Translations under genes and position numbers: made by a program
Shown: positions 6,451 to 34,018 of the stretch, piece after piece
Position numbering within the stretch: position 1 is the stretch's first letter
Layout: every line of letters begins with the position of its first letter
Notes under the pieces: model-generated
Seen by the model: only the letters and a program-made list of their open reading frames with translations
Told to the model about the DNA's origin: nothing
The model's database searches: none
Assembly (NCBI RefSeq): GCF_000264455.2
Contig: NC_017956.1
Coordinates: 913,501 to 977,500 of the forward strand
Source of the DNA: Tistrella mobilis KA081020-065
Lineage (GTDB): Bacteria; Pseudomonadota; Alphaproteobacteria; Tistrellales; Tistrellaceae
Direction: 5' to 3'
Length of the DNA stretch: 64,000 nt

Positions 6451-6460
6451 GGGCGGAACC

Positions 6461-7864: not shown

Positions 7865-7911
7865 TCAGGCGCCGCCCGACCGCACCACGACGACGCATCA
7901 GACGACGAAAG

Positions 7912-7944
7912 ACGCGGCCTCCAGCGACGGAGGCCGCGTTTTTT
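7912..7944 (+). terminator. Rho-independent terminator after pntB
   Basis: A perfect 11-bp stem (ACGCGGCCTCC / GGAGGCCGCGT) with a 6-base loop is followed by a run of six T residues. Confidence 0.92.
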
Positions 7945-7983
7945 CGTAAACTGCAGAAAGACGCGCGGCTCAGGGGAGGTGAC

Positions 7984-8247: not shown

Positions 8248-8278
8248 TCCGGACGGCGAAGGGCTCCGGCTCCTGCAC

Positions 8279-9202: not shown

Positions 9203-9351
9203 CGGGCATGTCCTCCCTTCGGGCGGCCGGTTCGTGATGCCGGCTTCGATAGATCGAGAGTGCCGCCGCAAGGGCCGGGCGGCTATGGCGGAGCCGGCCG
9301 GATTCTTGATAAAATCGGCCAGATCGACCGCTGAAGACGAGGAGGGGGACG

Positions 9352-10416
9352 ATGGTCCATGCCGGCGACCGGCGCGATCCGGTGGGCGTGGTCAACATCC
9401 TGGAGATGGCCCGCGGGCGCGGGCTCGATCCCGCTGCACTCGCGGTCGCGGGCGGGCTGGATGCTTTGCGGCCGGCCGATGCCCCGGTGCTGGCCTGGCA
9501 GGAACTGGCGGTGATCGAAGCGGTGCTGCGCGCCCTGCCGGACCAGGATCCGGCCCTGCTGGGGCTGGAAACCGGGCTGTGCTATCGCGTCTCCGCCTTC
9601 GGCCTGTTCGGCTGGGCGATGCTGACCCGCGCGGTCTTTGCCGATGCCCTGGCACTCTGGGCGCGGCTGCCGACGCTCGGCCTGTCATTCAGTGCGATCA
9701 CCGCCCGATATCCGCCGGGGGAGGCGATCGTCTTCACCCTCGACGATCACGGCCTGGTCTCTCTGCCGCGTGCGGTGCATCGCTTTCTGGTGGCGCGCGG
9801 GCTGGTCTCGACCGCCGTGCTCACCGCCGATCTGCTGGCGGCCCCGGTGATGCCGATGGCGGCAGGGATCGACATTCCGCCACCGTCGGAGGTTCAGGAC
9901 CGGGACCGTTTCCACGAGGTTCTGGGGCCGCATCTCGTCTTCGGCGGGGGCGGCGGGCATCGGCTGGTCTATCATGCAGCCCTGGCCGGTCGGCCGCTGC
10001 CCTTTGCCCATCCGGTGGCCACGCGCACGGCGGAACGGGCCTTTCTGGCCGAGGCGGCAAGGCGCGGCGTCGGCGGCCCGATGGCGGCACTCGACGTGCT
10101 GCTGCGCGACGAGGCCGGGCCGCCGGCCGATCTGGTTCAGGCCGCGCGGCGGCTGGCGATGTCGGAGCGGTCGTTGCGCAGGCGGCTGGCCGCGGCCGGA
10201 ACCAGCTTCCGGCAACGGCGGGATGCAGCACTGGCCGAACGCGCCCGGCGACTGCTGGTCGAGGGGGTGGCGGTCGAACGGGTGGCGATAGCGCTGGGTT
10301 ATGCCGATGCCGCCGCCTTCACCCGCGCCTTCCGGCGCTGGACCGGAGAGACGCCGGGGCGCTTTGCCCGGTCTCAGCCGCGCCGGTCGGCGATGACGGC
10401 ATCCTCGACGACATAA
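9352..10416 (+). CDS. AraC-family transcriptional regulator
   Basis: 354 residues with an N-terminal ligand-sensing domain of the Arabinose_bd type (about 20-205) and a C-terminal double helix-turn-helix from about 250. The second helix-turn-helix holds VAIALGYADAAAFTRAFRRW and is followed by TGETPGRFAR, the AraC signature. A GAGGAGGGGG ribosome site precedes the ATG. It is transcribed away from the dioxygenase gene across a 149-base shared promoter region, suggesting it regulates that gene and itself. Its last 43 bases overlap the convergent Dabb gene. Confidence 0.9.
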   Translation: MVHAGDRRDPVGVVNILEMARGRGLDPAALAVAGGLDALRPADAPVLAWQELAVIEAVLRALPDQDPALLGLETGLCYRVSAFGLFGWAMLTRAVFADALALWARLPTLGLSFSAITARYPPGEAIVFTLDDHGLVSLPRAVHRFLVARGLVSTAVLTADLLAAPVMPMAAGIDIPPPSEVQDRDRFHEVLGPHLVFGGGGGHRLVYHAALAGRPLPFAHPVATRTAERAFLAEAARRGVGGPMAALDVLLRDEAGPPADLVQAARRLAMSERSLRRRLAAAGTSFRQRRDAALAERARRLLVEGVAVERVAIALGYADAAAFTRAFRRWTGETPGRFARSQPRRSAMTASSTT

Positions 10417-10688
10417 TCGGCCACGACGCGCAGATCGCGCAGATGGCGGACGCGGGCGATCGATTCGGCATAAAGCGGGTCGGCCTTATAGGCGGCGAGG
10501 GCCGCCTCGTCGTCGAACTCGGCATAGACGATCAGGTCGACATCCGACGACAGCGCATCGCGCTTGGTATTCGTGCCGACCTCGAAGCGGCGGGCATGGG
10601 GAATGCCGCCCAGGATCGCGAGGCCGTCGCGCACCGCAGCGAGATCGGCCGGGGTCTTGGCGCTGAACATCACGATATGCCGGATCAT
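10374..10688 (-). CDS. Dabb (stress-responsive A/B barrel) domain protein
   Basis: A 104-residue single-domain protein starting MIRHIVMFSAK, with the family's dimeric ferredoxin-like barrel pattern (HIVMF near the start, RFEVGTN, DLIVYAEFDDEAALAAY, HP-like DPLYAESI and VRHLRDLRVVADY). Members are small cytoplasmic proteins of mostly unknown role. A GGAAG ribosome site precedes the ATG. Its 3' end overlaps the end of the convergent AraC gene by 43 bases, which is unusual for two real genes, but both proteins are clearly family members. Confidence 0.88.
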   Translation of the reverse strand: MIRHIVMFSAKTPADLAAVRDGLAILGGIPHARRFEVGTNTKRDALSSDVDLIVYAEFDDEAALAAYKADPLYAESIARVRHLRDLRVVADYVVEDAVIADRRG

Positions 10689-10773
10689 CGGGCTTCCTTC
10701 ACGACCGGGGGGAGGGAGGGCGGCGCGGCAGGGCGCCGGCGGAAGCTAGACCCGTCACCGGAATCCGGGCAAC

Positions 10774-10802
10774 AAAAAACCGCCGCTCGCGGGGAGGGCG
10801 GT
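10774..10802 (-). terminator. Terminator of rpsU
   Basis: Read on the minus strand, a 6-bp core stem (ACCGCC/GGCGGT, with further weak pairing inside) is followed by six T residues. It lies 89 bases beyond the rpsU stop. Confidence 0.75.
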
Positions 10803-10890
10803 CTTTCGTAACGGCAGGTATGTCATGCCGTGGGCCGGTTCGGCTTCAGGGCATGCATCCGGTCGTCGGGGCGCGGAACGCGCCTGCTGC

Positions 10891-11097
10891 TCAGAGCAGG
10901 CCCTCGCGCTGCGCACGCTTCATCGCGAGCTTGCGGGCGCGACGAACGGCCTCCGCATCCTCACGGGCGCGCTTCTCCGACGGCTTTTCATAATGCCGAC
11001 GCATCTTCATCTCGCGGAAGATGCCTTCACGCTGCATCTTCTTCTTCAGCGCGCGAAGCGCCTGGTCGACATTGTTGTCGCGAACGATGACCTGCAC
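10891..11097 (-). CDS. rpsU: 30S ribosomal protein S21
   Basis: A 68-residue basic protein, [19 protein letters not shown] at the N terminus and a lysine/arginine-rich C-terminal tail, matching bacterial S21 in length and sequence. The start must be the GTG at 11097, because S21 proteins begin directly at (M)QVIVRDNNV; the frame is open much further upstream, but that region is non-coding. S21 helps the small subunit select mRNA starts. The upstream neighbour on the other strand is tenA, with a COQ9 homologue beyond it. Confidence 0.96.
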
Positions 11098-11409
11098 CAA
11101 GTCTACACCCGTCTTGTCAGTCGATTGAAACCCGGTCCGGACGTCCTCCGTCCGGGCCCGTCGCGACGCACCGCGACAGATCACGACCACCGAAACCCTC
11201 GGCGACCATCGGCCGCCTTTGGTACCGGGGCGACGGATGAAAGTCAAACCGATTCGACCGTTGCGAAACGAAAGCCGGCACGAGTGGCCTCCCAGCCTCT
11301 CGTCCCGAGATCCCGACGGCGTGCGTGTTTGTTCGAAACCGAGTATAGGGGAAGGGGCCCACGCCGGCAAGGGCGTGTGGCCGGATCAGAAGACCCAGGG
11401 AGATGCCAG
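11098..11409. other. Shared upstream region of rpsU and tenA
   Basis: About 310 bases without a gene between two divergent starts. Visible features are a small hairpin at 11360-11377 (CACGCC/GGCGTG) just upstream of tenA. I looked for a thiamine-pyrophosphate riboswitch ahead of tenA and saw no THI-box consensus. Confidence 0.5.
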
Positions 11410-12081
11410 ATGTCCGCCAGCCCCGCCGAGGCGCGTTTCAGCCTCAGCCTGCGTGCCGCCGCCGAGCCCGACTGGAGCGCGGTCACCGGCCACCGCTTCA
11501 CCGACGAGCTGATCGCCGGCACGCTGGATGATGCGGTGCTCGCCCGCTATCTGGTTCAGGATCACCGGTTCATCGACGCATTCGTGGCCCTGCTGGGAGC
11601 GGCCATCGCCTCGGCCGACCGCTTCGAGGCGCGGATCCCGCTCTGCCGCTTCGCCGCCATGGTGACCAGCGACGAGAACGACTATTTCCTCCGGGCCTTC
11701 AAGGCATTGGGCGTGGACGAGGCGATGCGGGCGGACCTGCCCGACCATCCCGCGACCGCCACCTTCAAGGCGCTGATGGCCGAGGCGCGGCTGACGGCCG
11801 ACTATGCCTGCTGCCTGGCGGTGCTGGTGGTGGCGGAATGGAGCTATCTCTCCTGGGCCGAGCGAGCCGGGGGCCGCCTGCCGCCACGTTTCGAGCACGC
11901 CGAATGGATCACACTCCACGATAATCCGTTCTTCCGGGAGTTCGTGGGCTGGCTGGTCTCGGAGCTCGACCGGGTGGGGGCCATGCTGGATGATGCGGCC
12001 CGGGCGCGGGTCGAAGATCTGTTCCGGCGCGCAGTGGCGGCGGAGCGCGCCTTCTTCGACGCGGCCTATGCGGCGGCATGA
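11410..12081 (+). CDS. tenA: TenA-family protein (thiaminase II type)
   Basis: A 223-residue all-helical TenA/THI-4 family protein; characterised members hydrolyse aminopyrimidine breakdown products of thiamine for salvage. The segment YACCLAVLVVAEWSYLSWAE carries the cysteine pair at the position of the catalytic cysteine and the following acidic and aromatic residues of the active site. The ATG at 11410 has AGGGAG upstream; longer in-frame extensions cross the rpsU region and are not credible. It lies between rpsU and COQ9 rather than in a thi operon; the only other thiamine gene in the window is thiE near 59 kb. Function is inferred from family. Confidence 0.88.
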   Translation: MSASPAEARFSLSLRAAAEPDWSAVTGHRFTDELIAGTLDDAVLARYLVQDHRFIDAFVALLGAAIASADRFEARIPLCRFAAMVTSDENDYFLRAFKALGVDEAMRADLPDHPATATFKALMAEARLTADYACCLAVLVVAEWSYLSWAERAGGRLPPRFEHAEWITLHDNPFFREFVGWLVSELDRVGAMLDDAARARVEDLFRRAVAAERAFFDAAYAAA

Positions 12082-12163
12082 CCCGTTGACGGCGTAGCCT
12101 TGCGACGCTAGCTGATCTGGCATGGTGCCGCGACGACCATGCCGATCCTGAGGGAGACGGAAG

Positions 12164-12937
12164 ATGACCGCAGACGACGGACATACCCGCGACCAGACGG
12201 GCGCTGACGACGAGGCCGGGGTTCTGCCGCCCTCAGATACCGAAACCGGCGGTGCCGATGCGCCTGAAGCCGGCGTGCCGCAGCTTCTGCGCGATCGCGA
12301 CGCGGTGTTGGAACAGGCACTGCCCGATGTGCCCTTCGACGGCTGGACGGACGACCTGGTCCGCCGCGCCGGCCAGGCCGCCGGCTTCGACGCCGCTGCC
12401 ACCCGCCGGCTGTTCCCGCGCGGGCGGATCGATCTGATCGTGCATTTCTGCGACTATGCCGACCGGCGGATGGCGGCGGAGCTGGAGCGGATCGATCTGC
12501 CGTCGCTGCCGATCCGCAGCCGGATCACCACCGCGGTTCTGGTGCGGCTGGAGCAGAACCTGCCCCATCGCGAGGCGATCCGGACCGCGCTCGGCCTGCT
12601 CGCCCTGCCGCAGAATGCCGCCCTCGGCCTGAAGACGCTCTATCGCACGGTCGATGCGATGTGGTGGGCGGCGGGCGACACCGCGACGGATTTCAGCTTC
12701 TACACCAAGCGCGCAACCCTGGCCGCGGTCTACAGCTCGACGCTGGCGGTCTGGCTGGACGACAAAAGCGAGGGCTTCGCCGATACCCGCGCCTTCCTGG
12801 ACCGGCGGATCGCCGATGTGATGCGCATCCAGAAGGTCCGCGGCCGGGTGGAAAAGATGCTGCCCGATCCGCGCCGCTTCCTGCCCGGCGGCAGCCGCTT
12901 CGCCGGCCGCAATTCCCTGCGCATGCGGGGGCGCTGA
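12164..12937 (+). CDS. COQ9-family ubiquinone biosynthesis protein
   Basis: 257 residues. After about 45 disordered acidic residues, the all-helical COQ9 domain runs to the end, including FPRGRIDLIVHFCDYADRRM, WWAAGDTATDFSFYTKRATL and the VYSSTLAVWLDD segment, which are family landmarks. COQ9 binds lipids and assists hydroxylation steps of ubiquinone synthesis. Bacterial members were first named for being transcribed divergently from rpsU, and this arrangement holds here except that tenA is interposed. ATG start with GGGAGACGGAAG just upstream. Confidence 0.93.
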   Translation: MTADDGHTRDQTGADDEAGVLPPSDTETGGADAPEAGVPQLLRDRDAVLEQALPDVPFDGWTDDLVRRAGQAAGFDAAATRRLFPRGRIDLIVHFCDYADRRMAAELERIDLPSLPIRSRITTAVLVRLEQNLPHREAIRTALGLLALPQNAALGLKTLYRTVDAMWWAAGDTATDFSFYTKRATLAAVYSSTLAVWLDDKSEGFADTRAFLDRRIADVMRIQKVRGRVEKMLPDPRRFLPGGSRFAGRNSLRMRGR

Positions 12938-12953
12938 GCCCCTGCCCGACGTA

Positions 12954-14069
12954 TCAGCTGTTGCTGCGCGCGGTGCCGAGCCGGGTGACATGGCCCATCT
13001 TGCGGCCCGGCTTGGCCTCGCTCTTGCCGTAGAGATGCAGCTTGGCGCGCGGCTCGGCCAGGATGTCGCGCCAGCGGTCGATATCGTCGCCCAGCAGGTT
13101 TTCCATTTCGGCATCGACCAGCCGCGCGGGGTCGCCCAGCGGCAGATCGGCGACCGCGCGGATGAATTGCTCGAACTGGCTGGTCGCGGCGGCGTCGAAC
13201 GACCAGTGCCCCGAATTATGCGGCCGCGGCGCCATCTCGTTGACCAGTACCCGGCCATCGCGGGTGACGAACATCTCCACCGCCAGCAGCCCCTCCAGGC
13301 CGAAGGCCTCGGCCAGCGCCAGCGCGATGCGTTCGGCCTCGGCGGCGATGGCGGCCGGCACCCGCGCCGGCACCCGGCTCAGATGCAGGATGCCGTTGCG
13401 GTGCTCGTTCTCGGCCGGCTCGAAGCAGCGCACCTCGCCTGCGGGCGTGCGGGCGACGATCACCGAGATCTCGCAGCCGAAATCGACCATCCCTTCGAGG
13501 ATGGCCGGCCGACTGCCGATCGTCGCGAAGGCGGCTTCGGCCGCGGCGCGGATGTCGCCCTCGGCCGCGATGCGGGCCTGACCCTTGCCGTCATAGCCGA
13601 GCGTGCGGGTCTTCAGGATCGCCGGCCGGCCCAGCCTCTCGATCGCGGCCACCAGCCCGTCGACATCGTCCACCCGGGCATAGGGCGCCGTACCGATGCC
13701 CAGCCGGTTGACGAAATCCTTCTCGGACAGGCGGTCCTGGGTGGTCTCCAGCACCGTCCAGGCCGGACGCACCGGGCGCTTCGCCGCCAGCCCCGCGACG
13801 CTTGCCGCTGGCACGTTCTCGAATTCGAAGGTCACCACATCCACTGCGGCCGCGAAGGCGTCGAGGGCGGCCGCGTCGTCCCAGGCCGCGCGGGTCCAGG
13901 CATCGGCCACCTCGGCTGCCGGGCTTTCCGCTTCGGGGGCATAGACATGGACCTTGTAGCCCATCCGCGCGGCCGCGATCGCAGCCATCCGGCCAAGCTG
14001 TCCGCCGCCCATGATGCCGATCACCGAACCGGGGGCGAGCGGGGCGGGGGTGGTGGTGCGATCGGTCAT
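12954..14069 (-). CDS. purK: 5-(carboxyamino)imidazole ribonucleotide synthase
   Basis: An ATP-grasp enzyme that carboxylates aminoimidazole ribonucleotide with ATP and bicarbonate in de novo purine synthesis. 371 residues, normal length. The N-terminal GIMGGGQLGRM motif (about 18-28) is the family's nucleotide-fold signature; KTRTLGYDGKGQ (about 150-161) and VNEMAPRPHNSGHWS near 275 are ATP-grasp active-site segments. It follows purE by 41 bases on the same strand, so the two successive pathway steps are made together. Confidence 0.96.
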   Translation of the reverse strand: MTDRTTTPAPLAPGSVIGIMGGGQLGRMAAIAAARMGYKVHVYAPEAESPAAEVADAWTRAAWDDAAALDAFAAAVDVVTFEFENVPAASVAGLAAKRPVRPAWTVLETTQDRLSEKDFVNRLGIGTAPYARVDDVDGLVAAIERLGRPAILKTRTLGYDGKGQARIAAEGDIRAAAEAAFATIGSRPAILEGMVDFGCEISVIVARTPAGEVRCFEPAENEHRNGILHLSRVPARVPAAIAAEAERIALALAEAFGLEGLLAVEMFVTRDGRVLVNEMAPRPHNSGHWSFDAAATSQFEQFIRAVADLPLGDPARLVDAEMENLLGDDIDRWRDILAEPRAKLHLYGKSEAKPGRKMGHVTRLGTARSNS

Positions 14070-14110
14070 CGGGGTCGTCCGTACAGGGTGAGGGAAGATG
14101 AGAAGGCGGC

Positions 14111-14635
14111 TCAGGCCTGGTCGTCGACCGGTTCCAGCGCCACGCCGTCGGTCTGCTCGGCGCGGAAGGCTTCCAGCGCCTCCAGCACGGCGGCATCGTG
14201 GTTGGCGACCACGGCGGCGGCGAGCAGGGCGGCATTCTTGGCGCCCGCCTCGCCGATCGCCAGCGTGCCGACGGGGATGCCGGCCGGCATCTGCACGATC
14301 GACAGCAGGCTGTCCATGCCGTTAAGCGCCTTGCTCTGCACCGGCACGCCGAAGACCGGCACGCTGGTCTGGGCGGCGATCATGCCCGGCAGATGGGCGG
14401 CGCCGCCGGCACCGGCGATGATGACCTGCAGGCCCCGGCCGCGCGCGGCGGCAGCGTAATCGGCCATGCGCTGCGGCGTGCGATGGGCCGAGACGATGCG
14501 CACCTCGTGCGGGATGCCGAAACGTTCCAGCAGCACCGCGGCATGGCGCATGGTGGCCCAGTCGGATTGGCTGCCCATCACGATGCCGACCAGGGGCGCG
14601 GTGGTGGCGGGTGTTCCGGCGGGCGTTCCGGTCAT
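14111..14635 (-). CDS. purE: N5-carboxyaminoimidazole ribonucleotide mutase
   Basis: A 174-residue class I PurE that moves the carboxylate made by PurK onto carbon 4 of the imidazole ring. [35 protein letters not shown] and [21 protein letters not shown] are the classic octameric PurE segments. I start at the ATG at 14635, which has AAGGA upstream; the frame remains open for about 2.7 kb further, antisense to real genes, and that extension is spurious. Confidence 0.96.
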
Positions 14636-14818
14636 GAAGCCTGGTCCTTCTGTCTCTGGCGGATCGGGCCGGCGCGGCTGCCGGACCTTCAGGAGGGATC
14701 GGGGGCCGCGGATCATACAAACACCGCCCGGCCGTGTATACTCGCGCCGACGCATAAGCCCAGCGCGCCGCCCTCCCCAGCACGCTCTCTCCCAAGACAT
14801 TGCCGGAAGATGCGCATC

Positions 14819-15406
14819 ATGCCCAGCCCCGTGCCTGCACCCTCCACGCCGCAGACCCCCCTCGGCCGCCATGCCCATGCGGTCTATGGCCGGCCGTCGG
14901 CGCGGGAGGTCTGCCTTGAGGCCCAGGACGGCCATGGCGCCGATGTGGTGCTGATCCTGGCCTTCCACCATGCCGCTGCGACCGGCCGCCGGCTGGACGC
15001 GCATGGCATTGCGGCGCTGGATGCCGCAGCCGCCGGTTGGCGGGCCGAGGTGGTGCGGCCGCTGCGCGCCCTGCGCCGTCGGCTGCGCGGCGATGCCCCG
15101 GTCATGGCCGGCATGGCGGCGGATCGTGCCCGGGCGATCGGCGACGGCCTGCTCGCCCAGGAGATCGCGGCAGAGACCGCCATGCTCGATGCCCTGGCGC
15201 CGGTGTTGGACGGCCTCGCCCGGCCGCTCGGCGCGGGGGAAGACGGCCGCACCGCCTTTGCCCGCATGCTGAATCTGTATGGGGTGCTGCTGGTGGCCCT
15301 GCCCGACGGCTGGACCCGGGTGCGGGACGGGCTGGTGGCCAGCATGGGGCCCGCCATTCCGCGGGGGGAGAGCATTCCGCGGGAGGAGGCCGGCGACCGC
15401 GCTTGA
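14819..15406 (+). CDS. TIGR02444-family protein (DUF2390)
   Basis: A 195-residue helical protein of unknown role. The [28 protein letters not shown] segment, split around residues 20-48, and the [16 protein letters not shown] segment near 76 identify the TIGR02444 family found in proteobacteria. Two in-frame ATG codons occur; I favour 14819 because GGAAG lies nine bases upstream of it, while the earlier ATG at 14810 touches that sequence. It is divergent from purE. No motif indicates catalysis. Confidence 0.75.
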
Positions 15407-15508
15407 TCCCGGACCGGGCCGGCCCATCTTCTTCCACTTCCGGGCGTTCTGCCTGCCGCTCGTGCCTGCCGCATCCCCGCCTCCCGTGCTGACGAGGATC
15501 GCCCCGAG

Positions 15509-17239
15509 GTGAGACAGCCCCCCACAAGCTTCGCAGCCGGCCTTGCCCGCCTGCTGCTGGTCTGGATCCTGGCCGGCCTGCTGGTCAACATGCCGGCGCG
15601 CTTCGATGCCTGGTTCACGCCGGCCCATTTCCGCCTGTCGGTCGAGGTGGCGGCGGTCATCCTGCTCGCCCTGGCCCTGCCGGGGGGCTTTCCCGTCAGC
15701 CGCGGCAGCAACCTGGCCCGCAGCCCGGCACAGGCCGAACGCTGGCTGCCGGGTTTCCTGCTCCGGCTGGCGGCGGCCGGTCTGGCGGCGCTGGTGCTGC
15801 TGAGGGGCGCCGATCTGGTCGCCCATGCCGCCGCGGGCCGGCCGCTCGATCTCGGTCGCGATCTCTATCTGATGCCGGCGCTCTGGGATGTGCTGGCGGG
15901 TGATCCGGCGCGGCTCGCCGTCGTGCTCGGCTTCTGGATCCTGCCGGCGGTGGCGGTCTATCTGCTGGCGCGGCGCGGCCAGATCCTGGCCCGGCGCCAT
16001 CTGACCGGCGGCCGTCGCCCCGCGATGACCGTCGCGGTGCTGGGCGGCATGCTGGCGCTGGGCCAGGTGGTCGGGGCCGCCAGCCAGACCGGCGGGCCGG
16101 TGGGGGCGGGGGCGCTGCGGCTCGCCGCCTTCCAGGCCGATGCGTTGAAGGCACGGGCCCGGATCGAGGCGGAGCTTGCCGCGGCGGTGGCGGATGATCC
16201 CGCAGCTCACCTGCCGGGGCCGGCCCTGTTTCCGCGGCTGAGCGGCCGCGACGTGAACCTGTTCTTCATGGAAAGCTATGGCTGGTCGGCCCATCACGAT
16301 CCGCGGATCCGCTATGCGGTGGGCCGGCGGCTGGCGGATCTGGGGCACAGGCTCGATGCCGCGGGCTTCCGGGTGGTGAGCGGCTGGCTGGACAGCCCCG
16401 TCGTCGGCGGCCAGTCCTGGCTGGCCCATGGCACGCTGCTTTCGGGCCTGACGCTCGACCGGCAGCGGGCCTATGACTATGCGCTCTCGGCCGGGCGCAC
16501 GACGCTGGTCGACCTGTTCGGCCGTGCCGGCTGGCGGACGGTGGCGCTGATGCCGGCCATCCGCGAAACCTGGCCCGAGGCGGCCGCCTTCGGCTATGAC
16601 CGGGTGATGGATGCGGTGGCACTCGACTATCGCGGCCCGGCTTTCGGCTGGCCGACGGTGCCGGATCAGTATGCGCTGGACCGCTATGCCGCCGAGGAGC
16701 AGGCACCCGTGGATCGGCCGCCGCTCTTCCTCGAATTCGCCATGATCACCAGCCATCACCCCTGGGGGCCGCTGCCGCCGCTGCTCGACGACTGGTCGAT
16801 GGCGGGCGCCGCCGGCGGGCAGATCTTCGAGACAGCTGCCCCGCCCGAGGGCCAGCCCTTTGCCCGCGACACGGCCGTCTGGGCGGAACGCTATGCCAAT
16901 GCGCTGGACTACACCCTGGCCCTGGTCGGCCGCTGGGCCGTGGAGCGCATGCCGGAAAACGCCCTGCTGATCGTGGTCGGCGATCACCAGCCGCCGCTGG
17001 TCACCCCGGCGGATGCCCCGCACAGCGTGCCGATCCATGTGATCGCCCGCGATGCCGGCCTGATCCGCGCCTTCCAGGCCGAGGGGCTGACCCCCGGTCT
17101 GACGCTTGCCGCCGATGCGCCGGTCCGGCCGATGGCGGCCTGGCGCGACCTGATGATCCGCGCCACCCGCGATGCCGCGCCGCCCGTCGCGGGCTTGCCT
17201 TCCGTCGCGCCCGGAGATAGCTTCGAAAATCGAAGCTAA
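15509..17239 (+). CDS. LTA-synthase-like membrane protein, alkaline-phosphatase superfamily
   Basis: 576 residues. The first half has about five hydrophobic segments (around 8-25, 42-62, 85-108, 125-160 and 175-200); the second half is a periplasmic sulfatase/phosphoglycerol-transferase fold. NLFFMESYG (about 249-257) carries the first metal ligand, [14 protein letters not shown] (about 300) the probable Ser nucleophile region, and VVGDHQPPL (about 490) the Asp-His metal pair. Such enzymes transfer phosphoglycerol or phosphoethanolamine head groups to envelope glycans or lipids. Start is GTG with GAGGATC upstream. The stop codon lies in a palindrome described separately. Confidence 0.85.
17219..17237. 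promoter_or_regulatory. Perfect 19-base palindrome, candidate operator
   Basis: AGCTTCGA-AAA-TCGAAGCT is a perfect 8-bp inverted repeat with a 3-base centre. It overlaps the stop of the membrane protein gene and ends 57 bases before the nitronate monooxygenase start. There is no T run, so it is not a normal terminator. An HxlR-type regulator is encoded two genes on and could bind it; that link is inference. Confidence 0.45.
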
Positions 17240-17294
17240 ATGACACGGGGGCCATCGAAGGCCCCGGTCCTGAACGGGAAGGCAGGAACGCCTC

Positions 17295-18272
17295 ATGAAG
17301 ACGCGCATCACGGAACTGCTGGGCATCCGGCATCCGATCATCCAGGGCGGCATGCATTATGTGGGCTTCGCCGAGCTTGCGGCCGCGGTGTCGAATGCCG
17401 GTGCGCTCGGCATCATCACCGGCCTGACCCAGAAGACGCCCGAGCTTCTGGCGCGCGAGATCGCGCGGGCCCGCGAGATGACCGACCAGCCCTTCGGCGT
17501 GAACCTGACCTTCCTGCCGACCTTCCAGGCGCCGCCCTATCCGGAATACATCCAGGCGATCGTCGAGGGCGGTGTGAAGATCGTCGAGACGGCCGGCCGC
17601 AGCCCCGAGGCCTATATGCCGGCGCTGAAGGCGGCGGGGATCAAGGTGATCCATAAATGCACCTCGGTCCGCCATGCGCTGAAGGCCGAGAAGATCGGCT
17701 GCGATGCGGTCAGCGTCGACGGTTTCGAATGCGGCGGTCATCCGGGGGAGGACGACATCCCCAACATGATCCTGCTGCCACGGGCGGCGGAAGAGCTGAC
17801 CATCCCCTTCGTCGCCTCGGGCGGCATGGCCGATGCGCGCAGTCTGGTCGCGGCGCTGGCTCTGGGTGCCGACGGCATGAACATGGGCACCCGCTTCATC
17901 GCGACCAAAGAGGCGCCGGTCCACGAGAACGTCAAGCAGGCGATCGTGGCCGCGACCGAACTCGATACCCGCCTGGTCATGCGCCCGCTGCGCAATACCG
18001 AGCGCGTGCTGGCCAATGCCGCGGTCGACCGGCTGGTCGAGATCGAGCGCGAAAAGGGGGCCGACCTCAAGATCGACGACATCCACGATCTGGTGGCCGG
18101 CGTCTATCCGCGGGTGATGATCGAGGGCGAGATGGATGCCGGCGCCTGGAGCTGCGGCATGGTCGCCGGCCTGATCCACGACGTGCCGAGCTGTCAGGAG
18201 CTGATCGACCGGATCATGTCCGAGGCGGAAGGCCTGATCAATCAGCGCCTCGCCGGCATGATCGCCGGCTGA
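17295..18272 (+). CDS. Nitronate monooxygenase (2-nitropropane dioxygenase family)
   Basis: A 325-residue FMN-dependent TIM-barrel enzyme that oxidises alkyl nitronates; related proteins reduce enoyl groups or act on other substrates. [14 protein letters not shown] at the N terminus and [13 protein letters not shown] near 145-157 carry the FMN and active-site histidine region; [12 protein letters not shown] and [11 protein letters not shown] bind the phosphate. The gene is followed 38 bases later by an HxlR-family regulator on the same strand. Such pairs usually answer a toxic small molecule. The natural substrate is not evident. Confidence 0.88.
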
Positions 18273-18310
18273 TATCCGGCCGGGAGGAGAGTACGCGGGA
18301 GGGGAGCACG

Positions 18311-18802
18311 GTGGCGCGGGAACCGCTCGATCGGATGAATTGCAGCATCGCCCATGCGCTCGACGTGGTGGGATCGATCGACGGTTTCCTGATCCTGCGC
18401 AACGCCTTCAACGGCATGCGCACCTTCGACGCCTTCCAGGACCATCTGGGCCTGTCGTCGAGCGTGCTCTCCACCCGACTGAAGCAGATGACCGAGGCGG
18501 GCATCCTGCGCAAGACCCCGTCGCCCACCGACGGCCGGTCCTATGAATACCGGCTGACCGAACAGGGGCTCGGCCTCTATCCGGTGATGGTGGCGCTGCT
18601 CCATTGGGGCGAGCGCTGGACCCCGGATCCCGGTGGCGAGCGCATGTTCCTGACCGAAACCGCCACCGGCCGCCCGGTGGCGCAGATGGCGGTCCGCTCC
18701 GAAGACGGCCGCCCCCTCCGCCCGCAGGAGATCACCGCCGTGGCGGGACCGGGGGCGGATGACAAGATCCGGCAGCTGGTGGGGTGGCGGCGGAGACCTT
18801 GA
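18311..18802 (+). CDS. HxlR-family winged-helix regulator
   Basis: 163 residues with a MarR-like winged helix at about 5-100 (the CSIAHALDVVGSIDGFLILR opening is HxlR-like, with cysteine at residue 11) and a C-terminal extension of about 55 residues. LSSSVLSTRLKQMTEAGIL is the recognition helix and RSYEYRLTEQGLGL the wing. GTG start chosen because GGGAGGGGAG lies just upstream. It probably regulates the nitronate monooxygenase gene with which it forms an operon; single cysteines in this family can sense electrophiles. Confidence 0.85.
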   Translation: MAREPLDRMNCSIAHALDVVGSIDGFLILRNAFNGMRTFDAFQDHLGLSSSVLSTRLKQMTEAGILRKTPSPTDGRSYEYRLTEQGLGLYPVMVALLHWGERWTPDPGGERMFLTETATGRPVAQMAVRSEDGRPLRPQEITAVAGPGADDKIRQLVGWRRRP

Positions 18803-18820
18803 CCGTTTCTCAGCGCTCCC

Positions 18821-18839
18821 TTACATTTCAACCATGTAA
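18821..18839. promoter_or_regulatory. Inverted repeat ahead of the Xre/RES operon
   Basis: TTACAT and ATGTAA form a perfect 6-bp inverted repeat with a 7-base spacer, ending 12 bases before the antitoxin ATG and just upstream of its GGAGG ribosome site. Antitoxins of this family repress their own operon by binding such repeats, so autoregulation is likely. Confidence 0.55.
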
Positions 18840-18851
18840 TGGAGGCACGCG

Positions 18852-19319
18852 ATGAAGAATTACGCCTCAGAGTTGCATGTGCGAGATAATCGCGGGCGTG
18901 TTCCCACCCATCTGTCTGAACGTCCGGCATCGATTGCCGGCCTTCTTCATGACATAGGGAAGTTCGACTCGGCTTTCCAGAGAGATTTGAGGCGACGTTT
19001 GATCGCCACCCAAAAGATTGCGCGTGTTTTGGGCGTTCCGATGCCGGATGTCGTGGACATGCTTGGCGTGGATAAGGACAGCCTGTTGCAGCGACGGGGA
19101 CCGCGCCACACCGTAGCGGCCAGGCGTCTCAAGGAAATGCTGGAGATCCTCCAGCGTGTCGAAGCCTGGGCCGGAGGCCCACGTGCCGCCCTTTCGTGGT
19201 ATCGCGCCTATCCCATTCCGGCTCTGGGAAATCGTACCGCCGAGTCTCTGGTCAAGACAGGCGGGGCGAGCGCCGTCCGCGACTATCTCGATCATGTCGC
19301 TCTGGGCGGTTATGCGTGA
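18852..19319 (+). CDS. Xre/MbcA/ParS-type antitoxin of a RES toxin pair
   Basis: 155 residues. The N-terminal part resembles the Xre helical DNA-binding domain; the C-terminal DUF2384 toxin-binding domain is recognised by ALSWYRAYPIPALGNRTAESLV and the terminal VRDYLDHVALGGYA. It neutralises the RES toxin encoded next, whose GTG start overlaps this stop by four bases (GTGA). The codons look less GC-biased than in the flanking genes, which suits an acquired cassette. Confidence 0.9.
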   Translation: MKNYASELHVRDNRGRVPTHLSERPASIAGLLHDIGKFDSAFQRDLRRRLIATQKIARVLGVPMPDVVDMLGVDKDSLLQRRGPRHTVAARRLKEMLEILQRVEAWAGGPRAALSWYRAYPIPALGNRTAESLVKTGGASAVRDYLDHVALGGYA

Positions 19320-19834
19320 GGTTCGCCGGCGTCTGCTATCGGGCTCACGATCCGAAATGGGCGTTCAGGCCACTTTCGGGTGACGGTGCGGCGGTTCGGG
19401 GCGGCCGGTTCAATCCGCCAGGCGTGCCCGCGCTCTACCTGTCGCTCAGGATCGAAACCACTCTCCTTGAAGTGTCCGCAGGCCTGCCTGAGCGGATGTC
19501 TCCGTGCACGTTGTGCGTTTACGACGTCGATTGTGAACCCGTCGTCGATCTGCGGACTGCAAAAGACTGGCAGAACGCCGGGATTGATTCGCAGGACATG
19601 GCGTGCGCGTGGCTCATGCTGGCTCTGGCCGGCAAAGAACCTCCGACCTGGAGACTGGCGCGGCGGCTGATCGGGGCCGGAGCTGCAGGCGTCCTGGTCC
19701 CGAGTTTCGCGACGGGTGCCGCTGCGGACGACCAGAACCTTGTTCTGTGGCGGTGGGGGGCCGATCTGCCGCATCGGGTCGTGGTGTACGACCCCGAAGG
19801 CCGTCTGCCCTCGGATCAATCCTCCTGGCCCTGA
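19316..19834 (+). CDS. RES-domain toxin
   Basis: A 172-residue RES-domain protein; characterised members degrade or ADP-ribosylate using NAD+ and so arrest growth. The three conserved polar positions that give the name are visible: Arg in CYRAHDP, Glu in ETTLLEVS and Ser in LVPSFATG, plus the GGRFNPPG motif near residue 30. GTG start within the antitoxin stop gives coupled translation. It is full length with no obvious damage, so this is a complete type II pair. Its last 19 bases overlap the convergent ubiX gene. Confidence 0.92.
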   Translation: MRFAGVCYRAHDPKWAFRPLSGDGAAVRGGRFNPPGVPALYLSLRIETTLLEVSAGLPERMSPCTLCVYDVDCEPVVDLRTAKDWQNAGIDSQDMACAWLMLALAGKEPPTWRLARRLIGAGAAGVLVPSFATGAAADDQNLVLWRWGADLPHRVVVYDPEGRLPSDQSSWP

Positions 19835-20469
19835 GGCGGCGTCTCCCCCCACCGCTTCAGCCCCGGCGTGTCGATGTCGAAGAGGTCCAGCACCCGGCCG
19901 AGGGTGTGGTCGATCATCGCCTGCAGGCTGTCGGGCTTTGCATAGAAGGCCGGGACCGGCGGGGCGATGATGGCGCCGGCTTCCGCGGCCTGGGTCATGG
20001 CGCGCAGATGGCCCAGATGCAGCGGGGTTTCGCGGACCATCAGCACCAGCCGGCGGCGTTCCTTCAGCACCACATCGGCGGCACGGGTCAGCAGGCCGGT
20101 GGTGTTGCCATAGGCGATTTCCGACAGGCTGCGGATCGAGCAGGGGGCGACCACCATGCCCAGCGTGCGGAACGAGCCGCTGGAGATCGCAGCACCCACA
20201 TCGCGCGGATCATGGACCGTGTGGGCCAGGGCCTTCACCTCGGCGATGCGCAGAGCGGTTTCATAGGCGACCGTCATCTCGGCCGCCTTGCTCATCACCA
20301 GATGGCTCTCGATCCCGGCCGATTTCAGCAACTGCAACAGGCGGATACCGTAGACGACGCCCGAGGCGCCCGAGATGCCGACGATCAGACGGCGGGGCCC
20401 GGGGCGGCCCATGCCATTCATTGCCGTCATCGAACCGTCATCGGGGGGGTTGAAGCCGTCCGTCGTCAT
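19816..20469 (-). CDS. ubiX: Flavin prenyltransferase
   Basis: Makes prenylated FMN, the cofactor of the UbiD decarboxylase in ubiquinone synthesis. Recognised by LIVGISGASGVVYGIRLLQL near the N terminus, SSGSFRTLGMVVAPCSI (FMN contact) and LVLMVRETPLHLGHLRAM. The start is uncertain: the ATG at 20469 has GTGGA close upstream, while ATG 20430 gives a shorter protein that still contains the whole domain. No ubiD is adjacent; the other ubiquinone gene here is COQ9. Confidence 0.93.
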   Translation of the reverse strand: MTTDGFNPPDDGSMTAMNGMGRPGPRRLIVGISGASGVVYGIRLLQLLKSAGIESHLVMSKAAEMTVAYETALRIAEVKALAHTVHDPRDVGAAISSGSFRTLGMVVAPCSIRSLSEIAYGNTTGLLTRAADVVLKERRRLVLMVRETPLHLGHLRAMTQAAEAGAIIAPPVPAFYAKPDSLQAMIDHTLGRVLDLFDIDTPGLKRWGETPPQGQED

Positions 20470-26468: not shown

Positions 26469-28592
26469 ATGACAGGCGAGATGACCAGACCGAACGATGT
26501 GACGCCCATCAGGCCGACGCCGGATCAGGCGGCGGCGCTCGACGCGATCGAGGGCTTCCTGCGGGATGACGGGCTGGATGCCTTCATCCTGCGGGGCGGG
26601 GCCGGCACCGGCAAGACGGCGCTGATCGCGGCCCTGGTCGGCCGTCTGTCGGCGCGGAACCTGTCTCCGGCCCTCGTCGCCCCCACGGGGCGGGCGGCAC
26701 GGATCCTTACCCATAAGGTCGGCCGGATGGCCGGTGGTGAGGCGGCCACGGTGGTGACCATCCACCGCGCGATCTATGCCCTCGACCGGATCGAGGTGAA
26801 CGAGGAGGCCGTCTCCGAGACCGATCCCGGCCTCAGGATGATCTTTCCGCTGCGGGGCGAGGAGGCGGTCGCCCCGCTGATCGTGGTCGACGAGGCCTCG
26901 ATGGTCGGCGATCGCGAGATGCAGGGCGATCTGCTGCGCTTCGGTTCAGGCCGGTTGCTGGCGGATCTGATTGCCTTCTGCCGCATGCGGCGCCCGGGGC
27001 GCGCGGGGGACCGGCTGGCGAAACTGCTCTTCGTCGGCGACCCCGCCCAGCTGCCGCCGGTGGGGGAGGAAACCTCGCCGGCGCTCGATGCCGGTTATCT
27101 GGCCGTGACCTTCGGGCTGAAGGTCGCCGGCTTCGACCTCGCGACGGTGCTGCGCCAGGCCGAGGGCAGCGCCATCCTGGACCGCGCGACCCGGATCCGC
27201 GAGGCGCTGGCGGCCGGGCGGTTCGACACCCTCTCGCTCAGGCCCGATGCCACAGATATCGTGGAGGTGGATGCCGCCGGTGCCGTCGGGCTGATCGTCG
27301 ACGGCATCCGCGCGCGCGACCAGGTGGTGGCCGTGGTTGCCTCCAACGCCACCGCGCTCGACTATAATCGCAGTGTTCGCGAACGGCTGTGGGGGGATGC
27401 CGCCCTGCCGGTGCAGCCGGGCGACACGCTGCTGGTCAACCGCAATTCGCGCCGCTATGGCCTCAGCAATGGCGATGTGGTGAAGGTGCTCTCGGTCGAC
27501 CAGCCGGCCGAGACCGTGCCGGTGCCGCTGGCCGGCGGCCATCTCGTCACCCTGCGCTTCCGGCATGCGGTGGTGGCGCATCGCGAGGGCGACGGCACCG
27601 TCGTCCGCACCCGCTGCCTGCTGCTCGAAAACCTGCTCGACCAGCCGGGGCGCGATCTGACCCCGCTGGAACAGCGGGCCCTGCTGGTCCATTTCCGCAT
27701 CCGCCATCCGGAGCTGTCTCCGAAATCTGCGGCCTTCCGGCAGGCGATCGTCGAAGACCCCTATGTCAACGCGCTCCTGGTCAAATACGGCTATGCCATG
27801 ACCTGCCACAAGGCGCAGGGCGGGGAGTGGCAGACGGTGCTGGTCCATTTCGCCCCCGGCCGTGGCCAGCGCAACCCGGCCTTCTTCCGCTGGGCCTATA
27901 CCGCCGTCACCCGGGCGGTGGGCCGGTTGATCCTGGTCAACCCGCCCGATTTCAGCCCGGCGGATATCTGGGCGCCCGATCCGGTACCGGCGGCCACGGT
28001 GGACAACCCGGCGGAGGATCCGCGGGCGGATCCCGACTGGCATCGACTGTCCTTTCCCGCGGCCGCCGCCCCGCTGATGCAGGTCCACCGCCGGCTGCGC
28101 GCCCTCTGGGCGGCCCGGGGCATCACGATCGAAGACCTGCGGCATCTTCAATATTGCGAGCGCTACACCCTGGCCCGCGAGGGCCGGCGGGTCATGGTGC
28201 AGTATCATTACAACGGAAAGTTCCGGCCCGGCCGGGCCGGCATGGCGCCGGGTGGCGGGGATGCGGCCCTGGCAGAGGAGGCGCTTGCGGCCTTCCAAGG
28301 CTCTGCCGACGGCGCGGCTGAAGCGGAACAGCCGGCCTTCATCCGGGATTTCCTCGTCGAGCTGGATGCGGCGCTGGCGGGGACCTCCATCCAGCGTACC
28401 GGCCAGACGCCGATGCCCTATCGCTTGCGCATCGGTCTCGCCGACCGGACCCGCACGGGCGAGGTCGATGTCATCCACGATGCCCGCCAGAACTGGACGG
28501 CGGTTCAGGAAGTGGGCGGCCCGGGTGCGACCGGCGGGCTTTGCGATGAACTGCGCCGCTTGATGACCGACCGGATCGGACGCGGCGGATGA
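26469..28592 (+). CDS. RecD/Pif1-like SF1B helicase with C-terminal extension
   Basis: 707 residues. Superfamily 1B motifs occur in order: Walker A GGAGTGKT (43-50), Walker B VVDEAS (139-144), motif III GDPAQLPPVG (190-199), and the UvrD_C_2-type region MTCHKAQGGEW (444-454) with AYTAVTRA following. From about 515 an extra region of roughly 190 residues continues, with YCERYTLAREGRRVMVQYHYN in its middle; I do not recognise a catalytic motif in it. It is not RecD of RecBCD, since recB and recC are absent. The stop overlaps the next gene's start (ATGA), so the pair is translationally coupled. ATG at 26481 is an alternative start. Confidence 0.85.
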   Translation: MTGEMTRPNDVTPIRPTPDQAAALDAIEGFLRDDGLDAFILRGGAGTGKTALIAALVGRLSARNLSPALVAPTGRAARILTHKVGRMAGGEAATVVTIHRAIYALDRIEVNEEAVSETDPGLRMIFPLRGEEAVAPLIVVDEASMVGDREMQGDLLRFGSGRLLADLIAFCRMRRPGRAGDRLAKLLFVGDPAQLPPVGEETSPALDAGYLAVTFGLKVAGFDLATVLRQAEGSAILDRATRIREALAAGRFDTLSLRPDATDIVEVDAAGAVGLIVDGIRARDQVVAVVASNATALDYNRSVRERLWGDAALPVQPGDTLLVNRNSRRYGLSNGDVVKVLSVDQPAETVPVPLAGGHLVTLRFRHAVVAHREGDGTVVRTRCLLLENLLDQPGRDLTPLEQRALLVHFRIRHPELSPKSAAFRQAIVEDPYVNALLVKYGYAMTCHKAQGGEWQTVLVHFAPGRGQRNPAFFRWAYTAVTRAVGRLILVNPPDFSPADIWAPDPVPAATVDNPAEDPRADPDWHRLSFPAAAAPLMQVHRRLRALWAARGITIEDLRHLQYCERYTLAREGRRVMVQYHYNGKFRPGRAGMAPGGGDAALAEEALAAFQGSADGAAEAEQPAFIRDFLVELDAALAGTSIQRTGQTPMPYRLRIGLADRTRTGEVDVIHDARQNWTAVQEVGGPGATGGLCDELRRLMTDRIGRGG

Positions 28593-30007
28593 GCGCGCGG
28601 GAGATTTTTGCCCTGCGCCGGCAGGGCCGACATGCCGAGGCGCTGGATCTGGCGCGCCGCGCCCATGCCGGGGCGGGCGAGGGCGCCCCCGACATCTGGC
28701 TGCTGCGGGCCTATGCCTGGGTGCTCTACGACCGGATCCGACAGGCGGTGGATGCGCACGAAGCCGGGCGTCTCTCCCCCACGGCGCTTCATGCGGAGAT
28801 TTCGCCGGCCTTGCGCGAATTCTCACGCATGGCCGATCCGCTCCGGCGCGACAGCGCCTTTTCGCAGGTCCTGCGTCTGGCCGGCAAGGTTTCGGGCGTC
28901 TGGCCCGACTTCCTGGCCTTCGCCCACTGGGCCGGCATCGACGATTTCACCTGGGACGACCACAAGCCCTTCGTCGACGAGACCGGCCGCAAGCTCGATG
29001 ATCTGCGCACCCGCTTCGTCCGGGCGGTCTGTCGTGCCACGGTGGCGAAGGCCGGCGCCGAAGGCCCGGAGGCGGCATCCGTGGCCTGGGGGCGGGAGGT
29101 GCTGGACCGGGCGCTGGAGGGCGCACCCGACGATCAATGGTTGAATTATTACCGCAGCAGGTTGCACCTCGCCGATGGCGAGACCGCACCGGCGAGCCGC
29201 CGCCTGATCCCGGTGCTGCGCCGTCAGGGGCGGGCGGCCTGGGTCTGGGGTCTGCTGGGCGAGATCCTGGAAGAGGCAGGTGCGCGGGGCGATGCCCTGA
29301 TCTGCCTGATCCATGCCACCCGCCTCGCCCGCGAGGAACAGGAGCTGGGCCAGCTGCGCATCCGCCTGGCCCGGCTTCTGGCCCTCGACAGTCGCTTCGA
29401 CGAGGCGGCGGAACAGCTGCGCCAGGCGATGCGGTATCGCGAGCAGCACGGTTATCGCATCCCGCCGGACCTGGCGGCCCTCTGCGCGGCCAACTGGTTC
29501 GCCGCCGCGGTGCCGCGTGCGCCGGCCCCGGTCGATGCCGAAGCCGAGGCGCTGCTGCGCGGGCTGGAACGGGCAAATCTCGGCTACAGCCCGGGCGTGA
29601 TCGACCATGTCAACACGGCCAAGGCGTTGAGCTATGTGGCGACCGGTGCGACCAGCGGTTTCGTTCTGCCCCATGGCCGGTTTCCGGCGATCAGGACGCT
29701 GCCGCCGGGCACGGTGGTGGAGGTGGGCCATGCCGCGGCCGACGGGCCGGCGATCGACTGGCGCCCCTCTGCGGCCGACACGCTGCCGGGCTTGTGCGAG
29801 CGCTTCACCGGTGTGCTGGACCGCCAGGAGGATCAGGCCTTCGCCTTTCTGCGCGGCCCCGGGGGCGATGTCTTCGTACCGCCCGATCTTGCTGCCGGGA
29901 TCGCGGTCGGCAGCTGGCCGGGCCGGAACTGCCTTGCGATCCGGCGCACCGACAAAAAGGGCCGCACCGGCTGGCGGGCCGTGCGGCTGTCGGAGCCCGA
30001 CGCATAA
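28589..30007 (+). CDS. TPR-like protein with C-terminal cold-shock/OB-like repeats
   Basis: 472 residues, no signal peptide or membrane segment. Residues 1-330 are almost wholly helical with TPR-like spacing (for example GRHAEALDLARRAH at the start and DSRFDEAAEQLRQAMRY near 270). The end has two beta-rich stretches: about 345-380 (SYVATGATSGFVLPHGRFP) and about 406-465 (FTGVLDRQEDQAFAFLRGPG followed by DVFVPP), which have the pattern of nucleic-acid-binding cold-shock/OB folds. I know no characterised homologue. The four-base overlap with the helicase gene implies a joint complex on nucleic acid. Confidence 0.75.
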   Translation: MSAREIFALRRQGRHAEALDLARRAHAGAGEGAPDIWLLRAYAWVLYDRIRQAVDAHEAGRLSPTALHAEISPALREFSRMADPLRRDSAFSQVLRLAGKVSGVWPDFLAFAHWAGIDDFTWDDHKPFVDETGRKLDDLRTRFVRAVCRATVAKAGAEGPEAASVAWGREVLDRALEGAPDDQWLNYYRSRLHLADGETAPASRRLIPVLRRQGRAAWVWGLLGEILEEAGARGDALICLIHATRLAREEQELGQLRIRLARLLALDSRFDEAAEQLRQAMRYREQHGYRIPPDLAALCAANWFAAAVPRAPAPVDAEAEALLRGLERANLGYSPGVIDHVNTAKALSYVATGATSGFVLPHGRFPAIRTLPPGTVVEVGHAAADGPAIDWRPSAADTLPGLCERFTGVLDRQEDQAFAFLRGPGGDVFVPPDLAAGIAVGSWPGRNCLAIRRTDKKGRTGWRAVRLSEPDA

Positions 30008-30026: not shown

Positions 30027-30060
30027 AGACGGGCGGCACCCGTGAAGGTGCCGCCCGTCT
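30027..30060. terminator. Hairpin between convergent genes
   Basis: A perfect 14-bp stem (AGACGGGCGGCACC/GGTGCCGCCCGTCT) with a 6-base loop lies between the TPR gene and the convergent trcR-like gene. T runs are short on both sides, but the position suits a two-way terminator. Confidence 0.7.
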
Positions 30061-32035: not shown

Positions 32036-32845
32036 TCAGGGCTCCAGCACCATGCCCTCACGCGCGACCACCGTGCCCGGCCGCCGTTCGGCCACCTCGG
32101 CGGCGATGCGGTCCATCTGGTCGTCGTCATGGGCCGGGTCGTGGTGAAAGACGACATAGGTCTTCACGCCCGCCGCCTCGGCCAGACGCATGCCGGCCGA
32201 CCAGGTGGAATGGCCCCAGCCGACCCGGCTCGGATATTCCTCGTCGGTGAACATGGCGTCGTAGACCATGATGTCGGCGCCGGCCACCAGCTCGGCGATG
32301 CGCGGATCGACGCCCTCGGCCGGATGCTCGGTATCGGTGATGTAGCAGATGGAGCGGCCGTCGAATTCGACCCGATAGCCCACCGCCCGCTGCGGATGGT
32401 TCAGCAGGGCGGTGCGGATCCGGATCCCCGGATGCGGCTCCAGCACGTCGCCGGGAACGAAATCACGGAAGCTCATATCCGCCTTCATGATCTCGACCGG
32501 GACCGGAAAGACCGGGTCGCTCATCAGCGCGCACAGCAGGTCGCGCAGATTGCGCTCCGGATGCAGGTGCCCGGCCCACATCCGATAGGTATTGCGCGGA
32601 TCGAAGGCAGTGGAGAAGAACGGAAACCCGCAGATATGGTCGAAATGGGTGTGGGTCAGGAACAGGTCCGCATCCACGGGAACCCGGGTTCTCAATTCGT
32701 CGTCCAGGACGCGCAGTCCCGTGCCGGCATCGAAGATCAGGCGTCTGTCTCCGCATCGCATCTCCAGACACGACGTGTTGCCGCCATAGCGTACCGTCGA
32801 CGGGCCGGGGCAGGCGATGCTGCCGCGCACGCCCCAGAACTTCAC
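32036..32845 (-). CDS. MBL-fold metal-dependent hydrolase, copy A
   Basis: About 269 residues of a beta-lactamase-fold protein (phosphodiesterase-like branch). FWGVRGSIACPGPSTVRYGGNTSC opens the domain in two runs; THTHFDHICGFPFF holds the metal-binding HxHxDH, YITDTEH the bridging aspartate and FHHDPAHDDD the final histidine. The start is uncertain: the frame is open to an ATG at 33121, but the GTG at 32845 has AGGA eight bases upstream and matches where the paralogue begins. The paralogue is divergent, starting at 33164. Role unknown; relatives hydrolyse cyclic or linear phosphodiesters. Confidence 0.8.
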   Translation of the reverse strand: MKFWGVRGSIACPGPSTVRYGGNTSCLEMRCGDRRLIFDAGTGLRVLDDELRTRVPVDADLFLTHTHFDHICGFPFFSTAFDPRNTYRMWAGHLHPERNLRDLLCALMSDPVFPVPVEIMKADMSFRDFVPGDVLEPHPGIRIRTALLNHPQRAVGYRVEFDGRSICYITDTEHPAEGVDPRIAELVAGADIMVYDAMFTDEEYPSRVGWGHSTWSAGMRLAEAAGVKTYVVFHHDPAHDDDQMDRIAAEVAERRPGTVVAREGMVLEP

Positions 32846-33163
32846 CCAGAATTCCTGTGTCTTTGCCAATCCCTTACCCGCCGTTTCGAGCGGCCTCTCC
32901 TGTCCGACCCCGCGTGCTCTACAGGTATATGGTGACAGGGATGCGACGACGCCCCCTGCGGTTCCGGCATGGCCGGCCCGCATCGGTGCCTCTCCGGCGG
33001 TCCCTGTCCGTTCGGCCACCGCTCTCCCGGCGGTGATCCGTGCGTCTCCCGAACGGCAGTTTGCCTGCTTCGGTGGCGTGATGCAAACCGCGCACATCTT
33101 GCCCGGAACGCCGCCGCACACTACGGTTCTGAAGACGACAGGCCGATCACCACGAACAGGCGC
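32846..33163. other. Region between the two divergent MBL genes
   Basis: About 320 bases that hold the promoters of both paralogues if copy A starts at the GTG. A TATAT patch near 32927 is the only AT-rich spot. If copy A instead starts at 33121, most of this stretch is coding; its arginine/alanine/glycine-rich translation argues against that. Confidence 0.4.
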
Positions 33164-34018
33164 ATGATGACCTTTTCAGTCGCCTTCTGGGGGGTACGCG
33201 GCAGCATCGCCTGCCCCACACCCCGTCATATGCGCTATGGCGGCAACACGTCATGCGTGGCGGTGACCTGTGGGGACCGCCAGCTGATCTTCGATGCCGG
33301 CACCGGCATCCGCGAGCTGGGGCACCACATGAATCTTGCGGGCGTGCGCACGGCTACGCTGCTGCTGTCGCACACCCATTGGGACCACATCGTGGGCTTC
33401 CCCTTCTTCTCGCCCGCCTTCCGCCGCGGCAACCGGTTCGAAGTGCTGGCCGGCCATCTGATCGCGTCGGGCGGCATCCGGCGGGTCATCGACCGCCAGA
33501 TGCAGGCCCCGACCTTTCCGGTGCCGCTGGAGGCGATGAACGCCGAAATGACCTTCGACGATTTCGCCGCCGGCGATACGCTGATGCTGGGCCCCGACAT
33601 CCGGGTCCGGACCCTGCCGCTCAACCACCCCGACGGTGCTACCGGTTATCGCATCGACCATGCCGGCCGGTCTGTAGCCTACATCACCGATACCGAACAT
33701 CGCCCCGACGGGCCGGACCAGAACGTGCTGGCGCTGATGGACGGGGTGGACCTCGCCATCTATGACAGCACCTATACCGACGACGAATACCCGGCCAAGG
33801 CCGGCTGGGGGCATTCCACCTGGCAGGAAGGGGTGCGCCTCGCCCGGATGGCCGGGGCGCGCCGGCTCGCCATTTTCCATCACGACCCGGATCACGAGGA
33901 TGATTTCATGGACCGGGTGGGGGCGGCGGCCGCGGTGATGTGGCCCGGCGCGTTCGTCGCCCGCGAGGGCCTGGTGGTCGATCTGCTGACCGACAGTTTC
34001 CACGATCTGCCGCGCTGA
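33164..34018 (+). CDS. MBL-fold metal-dependent hydrolase, copy B
   Basis: 284 residues, starting MMTFSVAFWGVRGSIACPTP. The metal motif SHTHWDHIVGFPFF, the TDTEH aspartate region and FHHDPDHEDDFMD near the C terminus match copy A almost position by position, so the two arose by duplication and inversion. Two consecutive ATG codons are available at 33164 and 33167. No signal peptide: a cytoplasmic enzyme. A GC-rich hairpin (34024-34055, 13 of 14 paired) follows without a T run. Confidence 0.88.
   Translation: MMTFSVAFWGVRGSIACPTPRHMRYGGNTSCVAVTCGDRQLIFDAGTGIRELGHHMNLAGVRTATLLLSHTHWDHIVGFPFFSPAFRRGNRFEVLAGHLIASGGIRRVIDRQMQAPTFPVPLEAMNAEMTFDDFAAGDTLMLGPDIRVRTLPLNHPDGATGYRIDHAGRSVAYITDTEHRPDGPDQNVLALMDGVDLAIYDSTYTDDEYPAKAGWGHSTWQEGVRLARMAGARRLAIFHHDPDHEDDFMDRVGAAAAVMWPGAFVAREGLVVDLLTDSFHDLPR

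Follow-up and report, generated by a model that had tools for sequence, protein, structure and literature searches.

Do a helicase gene and the gene that overlaps its end form a nucleic-acid system of their own, and has that system been described before? These questions are raised by a locus of Tistrella mobilis KA081020-065, which lies within a stretch of 64,000 nucleotides (NC_017956.1, positions 913,501 to 977,500; hereafter the window, whose numbering is used throughout). A sequence-only reading had taken the two genes for a candidate undescribed two-component system that senses or unwinds nucleic acid, possibly in defence or stress repair.

The helicase, its tail and its partner

The first gene (positions 26469 to 28592, forward strand) encodes a RecD-like SF1B helicase of 707 aa with a C-terminal TBP-like tail, as judged from the open reading frame, Pfam, PADLOC and motifs. 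An alternative possible start is the ATG at 26481. The SF1B motif set is complete (GGAGTGKT, DEAS, GDPAQLPPVG, VLRQ, TCHKAQGGEW and YTAVTRA), with the Walker A motif GGAGTGKT at 26595 to 26618 of the forward strand, and in a motif comparison these motifs were kept in relatives, distant ones included. The complete helicase and the partner that overlaps it by ATGA had been reported from the sequence before; both reading frames and every motif were confirmed in place.

The C-terminal approximately 190 residues of the helicase had been left unassigned. They now resolve into two TBP-TOTE repeats (Pfam PF22721, whole-protein E=1.9e-33), both above cut-off and both on the forward strand, the first at 28071 to 28286 (E=7.6e-18) and the second at 28335 to 28565 (E=8.4e-15). 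The AlphaFold model of the tail (mean pLDDT 87) has four strands and a helix in the same order in both repeats. The best solved structure found by Foldseek is RnlA (E=1.5e-4), but the global TM is low (0.31), and a profile search of the PDB with the tail sequence gave no significant match, either to a TBP or to an RnlA chain. The predicted resemblance to RnlA is a structural lead only. Pfam found no nuclease or HEPN domain in either protein of the pair.

The partner (28589 to 30007, forward strand) is a TPR and S1/CSD protein of 472 aa, supported by the open reading frame, Pfam, PADLOC and a structure model. Its helical TPR region is a DUF7017 domain (29135 to 29518, forward strand; Pfam E=8.4e-22), and TPR folds are its top structural and profile matches. 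An OB domain, S1CSD-TOTE-2, follows at 29798 to 29989 of the forward strand and is above cut-off (E=2.7e-15 in Pfam, E=7.9e-16 in a scan of 398 genomes). Between the two is a weak S1CSD-TOTE-1-like OB stretch (29594 to 29725, forward strand), which is below cut-off at E=0.17 and beta-rich in the model. The partner model (pLDDT 93.6) consists of a helical array and then two beta-rich units, with predicted strands at residues 332-393 and 403-468. A TPR-like protein ending in two beta-rich stretches of cold-shock/OB pattern had been expected, and this description agrees with both the domains and the model strands.

The stop of the helicase gene and the start of the partner gene share ATGA at 28589 to 28592 of the forward strand. 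A four-base overlap, either ATGA or GTGA, is present in 12 of the 17 related loci checked from proteobacteria and proteobacterial plasmids. A perfect 13-bp inverted repeat with a 6-base loop (30028 to 30059) separates the partner gene from a convergent, presumably DUF1013-like gene and, from its sequence, is a probable terminator. A promoter scan gave nothing above chance.

Both proteins have full-length matches in PADLOC-DB. The helicase matches PDC-M16A (E=2.6e-285, profile positions 4-686 of 691) and the partner matches PDC-M16B (E=1.2e-207, profile positions 1-469 of 471). PDC denotes "Phage Defense Candidate" (PMC12429752). TOTE, for TPR, OB, TBP and Effector, is a family of conflict systems from the work of Aravind, Iyer and Burroughs in 2022, as cited in PMC12458937. 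The TPR component is present in the pair as DUF7017, the OB component as S1CSD-TOTE-2 and the TBP-like domain as the two PF22721 repeats. As for the effector, the RecD-like helicase is the sole enzyme at the locus. The pair almost certainly belongs to the TOTE / PDC-M16 family. Because both proteins match the PDC-M16 profiles over their full length and their domains bear Pfam TOTE names, the pair is already catalogued; read from its sequence, it is a TOTE conflict system reduced to two genes and recorded by computation, and hence not a new system. The proposal of a two-component nucleic-acid system therefore loses the word "undescribed". A literature search turned up no experiment that reports PDC-M16 or TOTE as active against phage, no paper naming PDC-M16 and none for DUF7017. 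The condition named earlier as refuting, that the tail and the partner match a fully characterised system, thus holds only by half, the family being catalogued, as far as found, by computation alone.

Distribution and chromosomal setting of the pair

Relatives were gathered from 84,980 prokaryote genomes in a single scan, which yielded 43 loci. A partner-like gene adjoins nearly every helicase homologue among them that bears the TBP tail and whose contig covers the neighbouring gene, and this adjacency is conserved across phyla. The helicase and partner had been expected to separate in other genomes if they did not belong together; they did not separate. One Balneolaceae locus has the partner on the other side of the TBP helicase, in divergent orientation. 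Homologues of 461-501 aa that carry no TBP tail have no adjoining partner. A single-sequence search missed the partner at three Bacteroidales loci (L030, L034 and L032), in the first two of which a gene of fitting length stands at the expected place.

The reverse test used a sample of 398 Pseudomonadota genomes, independent of the larger scan and including the window genome. TBP-TOTE occurs in five of them (approximately 1%), the window genome among these. The four strong S1CSD-TOTE-2 matches fall in four of the five TBP-TOTE genomes, each 1.2-2.0 kb from TBP-TOTE. Their E values are at most 5.7e-17 in three genomes and 7.9e-16 in the window, and the next match anywhere in the 398 genomes is at 1.8e-6. 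The fifth genome, in which no strong match was found, is a draft of about 730 contigs. The divergence of the two proteins is also correlated (mirror r=0.89, reached in 0 of 5000 permutations), a value to which shared ancestry contributes. The idea of two components acting together, likely in defence, stands on this correlation, on the adjacency across phyla and on the relatives found in defence loci.

Selection on both genes was compared with the sister species. The dN/dS ratios are 0.20 for the helicase and 0.15 for the partner, so both genes are maintained by purifying selection. The dN values (0.069 and 0.053, respectively) rank near the top when eleven local genes are compared.

The setting of the pair in the window is plain. 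Its ten neighbours are metabolic genes and one small gene that matches no family, which we take to be DUF1013/TrcR-like. PADLOC found no match in any of the ten, in agreement with the earlier view that no nuclease or known defence partner is adjacent. Neither a tRNA gene nor an Rfam match was found in the window, and 16 kb around the pair is collinear with the sister species, the one other genus member compared. On these grounds a defence-island or mobile-element setting was rejected. Further along, two divergent genes of metallo-beta-lactamase fold (32036-32935 on the reverse strand and 33167-34018 on the forward strand) share about 66% DNA identity and, by their sequences, are apparently an inverted duplication.

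This setting speaks for another explanation, in which a pair of TOTE defence descent has been domesticated in the genus for chromosomal maintenance, such as R-loop removal or the repair of stalled forks. The pair stands alone among metabolic genes, it is collinear in both genus members compared and its purifying selection is clear. However, its spread is patchy and defence-like: nearly all other alphaproteobacterial families sampled are without it, as are all but approximately 1% of the Pseudomonadota, and its dN is high relative to the neighbouring genes. We consider domestication unlikely, if the strongest of the alternatives.

Defence loci of other genomes and a proposed function

The flanking genes of the relatives were chosen by eye and are not a random sample. 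In Herbaspirillum, Pseudoxanthomonas and Stenotrophomonas (L006, L007 and L008, at about 5000-20000) brxC directly precedes the pair and pglX follows it, the gene preceding the helicase in L007 being called brxC solely by its clustering with those of L006 and L008. The Herbaspirillum locus has brxA and brxB upstream and an extra UvrD-like helicase gene between the pair and pglX. We know of no BREX arrangement of this kind in the literature. In Pantoea the genes ahead of the pair encode a ZorD-like SNF2 protein, one resembling restriction enzymes and an McrBC component. In two Chromatiaceae loci (L018, L023) the genes ahead of it encode a protein with a weak receiver domain and a conflict-type histidine kinase to which a reverse transcriptase is fused. 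A Bacteroidales operon, seen at L025, L026, L028, L030, L031, L034 and L046, is composed of a reverse transcriptase, HisKin-conflict, two family-less genes, the pair and a downstream WYL gene. The genes of approximately 215 aa and approximately 550-587 aa in the reverse-transcriptase operons have no Pfam match. In Rhodothermus the pair is plasmid-borne among CRISPR and CARF genes. Flank clustering found no third gene conserved family-wide beside the proteobacterial pair, only clade-specific operons.

Some plasmid copies carry an N-terminal DUF4145 domain with the common motif R-x2-G-N-x-A-A-H (L050:5203-9563, L052:7422-12160 and L053:7347-12037). These are on plasmids of Klebsiella (pBJYY8-1KPC), Leisingera and Pseudomonas. 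DUF4145 is a member of the HEPN superfamily, and by 2013 a RecD-type helicase with a fused HEPN domain had already been listed (PMC3710099).

Several other relatives were observed. A Rhodanobacter copy (L012:6870-9901) is adjoined by a 714 aa protein with AriA/OLD-like PADLOC matches and by a family-less 310 aa gene. On an E. coli plasmid (NZ_CP074002.1, about 11995-15099) the helicase gene is interrupted by ISVsa5. An unannotated phage scaffold from human gut (faecal) material (L054:5123-9296) has a NusG-like gene and then a divergent pair of helicase-TBP and TPR-CSD genes, the latter a weak relative. A helicase relative 55% identical is on an IMG/VR viral contig (L082:3403-5469).

These settings could mean that the pair is an accessory module, which needs another defence system elsewhere in the genome, for example BREX or restriction, and supplies it with unwound or recognised nucleic acid. 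The insertion between brxC and pglX, the place within reverse-transcriptase operons and the nearness to McrBC genes point that way. However, many loci, the window included, have no adjacent partner system, and the plasmid forms consist of the pair and a fused HEPN domain only. Such dependence appears improbable to us, rather more so than domestication. A broader idea can be offered tentatively: the RecD-TBP and TPR-CSD pair may be a portable cassette for nucleic-acid recognition that is used by mechanistically unrelated defence systems (BREX, reverse transcriptase/histidine kinase/WYL, McrBC) and that also works alone with the helicase as effector.

Taken overall, the best explanation is that the pair is a TOTE defence module that senses and unwinds nucleic acid. 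We regard this reading as probable, with its substrate and effector step as we infer them here, and a defence role in general as a little more probable still. Against the defence reading stand the ten neighbours, which include no defence gene, the collinear locus, which is unlike a recently acquired island, and the lack of an effector nuclease.

The properties of the domains suggest how such a module might operate. RecD-family SF1B motors translocate in the 5' to 3' direction, single strands are the ligands of S1/CSD domains, and TBP-like domains grip double helices. We therefore propose that the complex would recognise abnormal nucleic acid of an invader and that the motor would remodel it. 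Recognition of single strands and of a duplex, for example an RNA/DNA hybrid, would fall to the OB domains together with the TBP clamp. The TPR array would act as the scaffold of the complex and may also be a docking site for additional factors. The ATP-driven motor would then unwind or strip the recognised structure, and replication or transcription of the invader would be blocked. The isolated TBP-like domain of RNase H3 bound RNA/DNA hybrid and not dsDNA or dsRNA (PMC4132731). By analogy, recognition of RNA/DNA hybrids by the complex is conceivable, if less likely than not. No second effector is adjacent in the window genome, and therefore the effector must be either the helicase or a factor from another locus.

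The window copy is the barest version of the module: a single motor, a single TBP clamp and a single TPR-OB partner, without a nuclease and in a plain chromosomal setting. It is therefore a clean substrate for questions about core recognition and about the helicase as effector. The more interesting lead is the recurrence of the cassette in BREX and reverse-transcriptase operons.

Comparison with known systems

The RecD and RecD2 SF1B helicases have the same motor fold and motif set as the window helicase, which differs in its TBP tail and in having neither RecB nor RecC. That it is an ordinary repair helicase of this type with an unrelated TPR neighbour can be dismissed as very remote, since both models match the motor core but score far under their curated cut-offs (RecD2 93.4 against 500 bits, RecD 66.7 against 310 bits), and the TBP tail and the conserved adjacency of the partner contradict it; identity with RecBCD or RecD2 was rejected on the same scores. 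RnlA, the RNase LS toxin, is the best solved-structure match of the tail; however, the window protein has no RNase domain and, as noted, the global similarity is low.

TALON, as described in PMC12458937, has TPR-CSD and TBP components in common with the window pair. It differs in its YprA-family helicase and its NERD nuclease, neither of which was seen at the locus. The window helicase is of RecD/UvrD_C_2 type, and the ten flanking genes lack any PADLOC match.

The closer relatives share more. The plasmid pairs of Klebsiella, Leisingera and Pseudomonas veronii, HEPN(DUF4145)-RecD-TBP with TPR-CSD, have the same helicase, TBP tail, partner and four-base overlap, and differ in the extra N-terminal DUF4145/HEPN domain, which the window protein lacks by Pfam. 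TOTE systems likewise have a TPR protein with S1/CSD OB domains and a TBP-like domain, in the window fused to the helicase, whereas at the window locus neither an effector gene of its own nor a domain of RNase H type is present. PDC-M16 (A and B) is matched over the full length of both proteins and in the identical two-gene order. Nothing in the sequence sets the window copy apart from it; the difference lies in the setting, outside any defence island.
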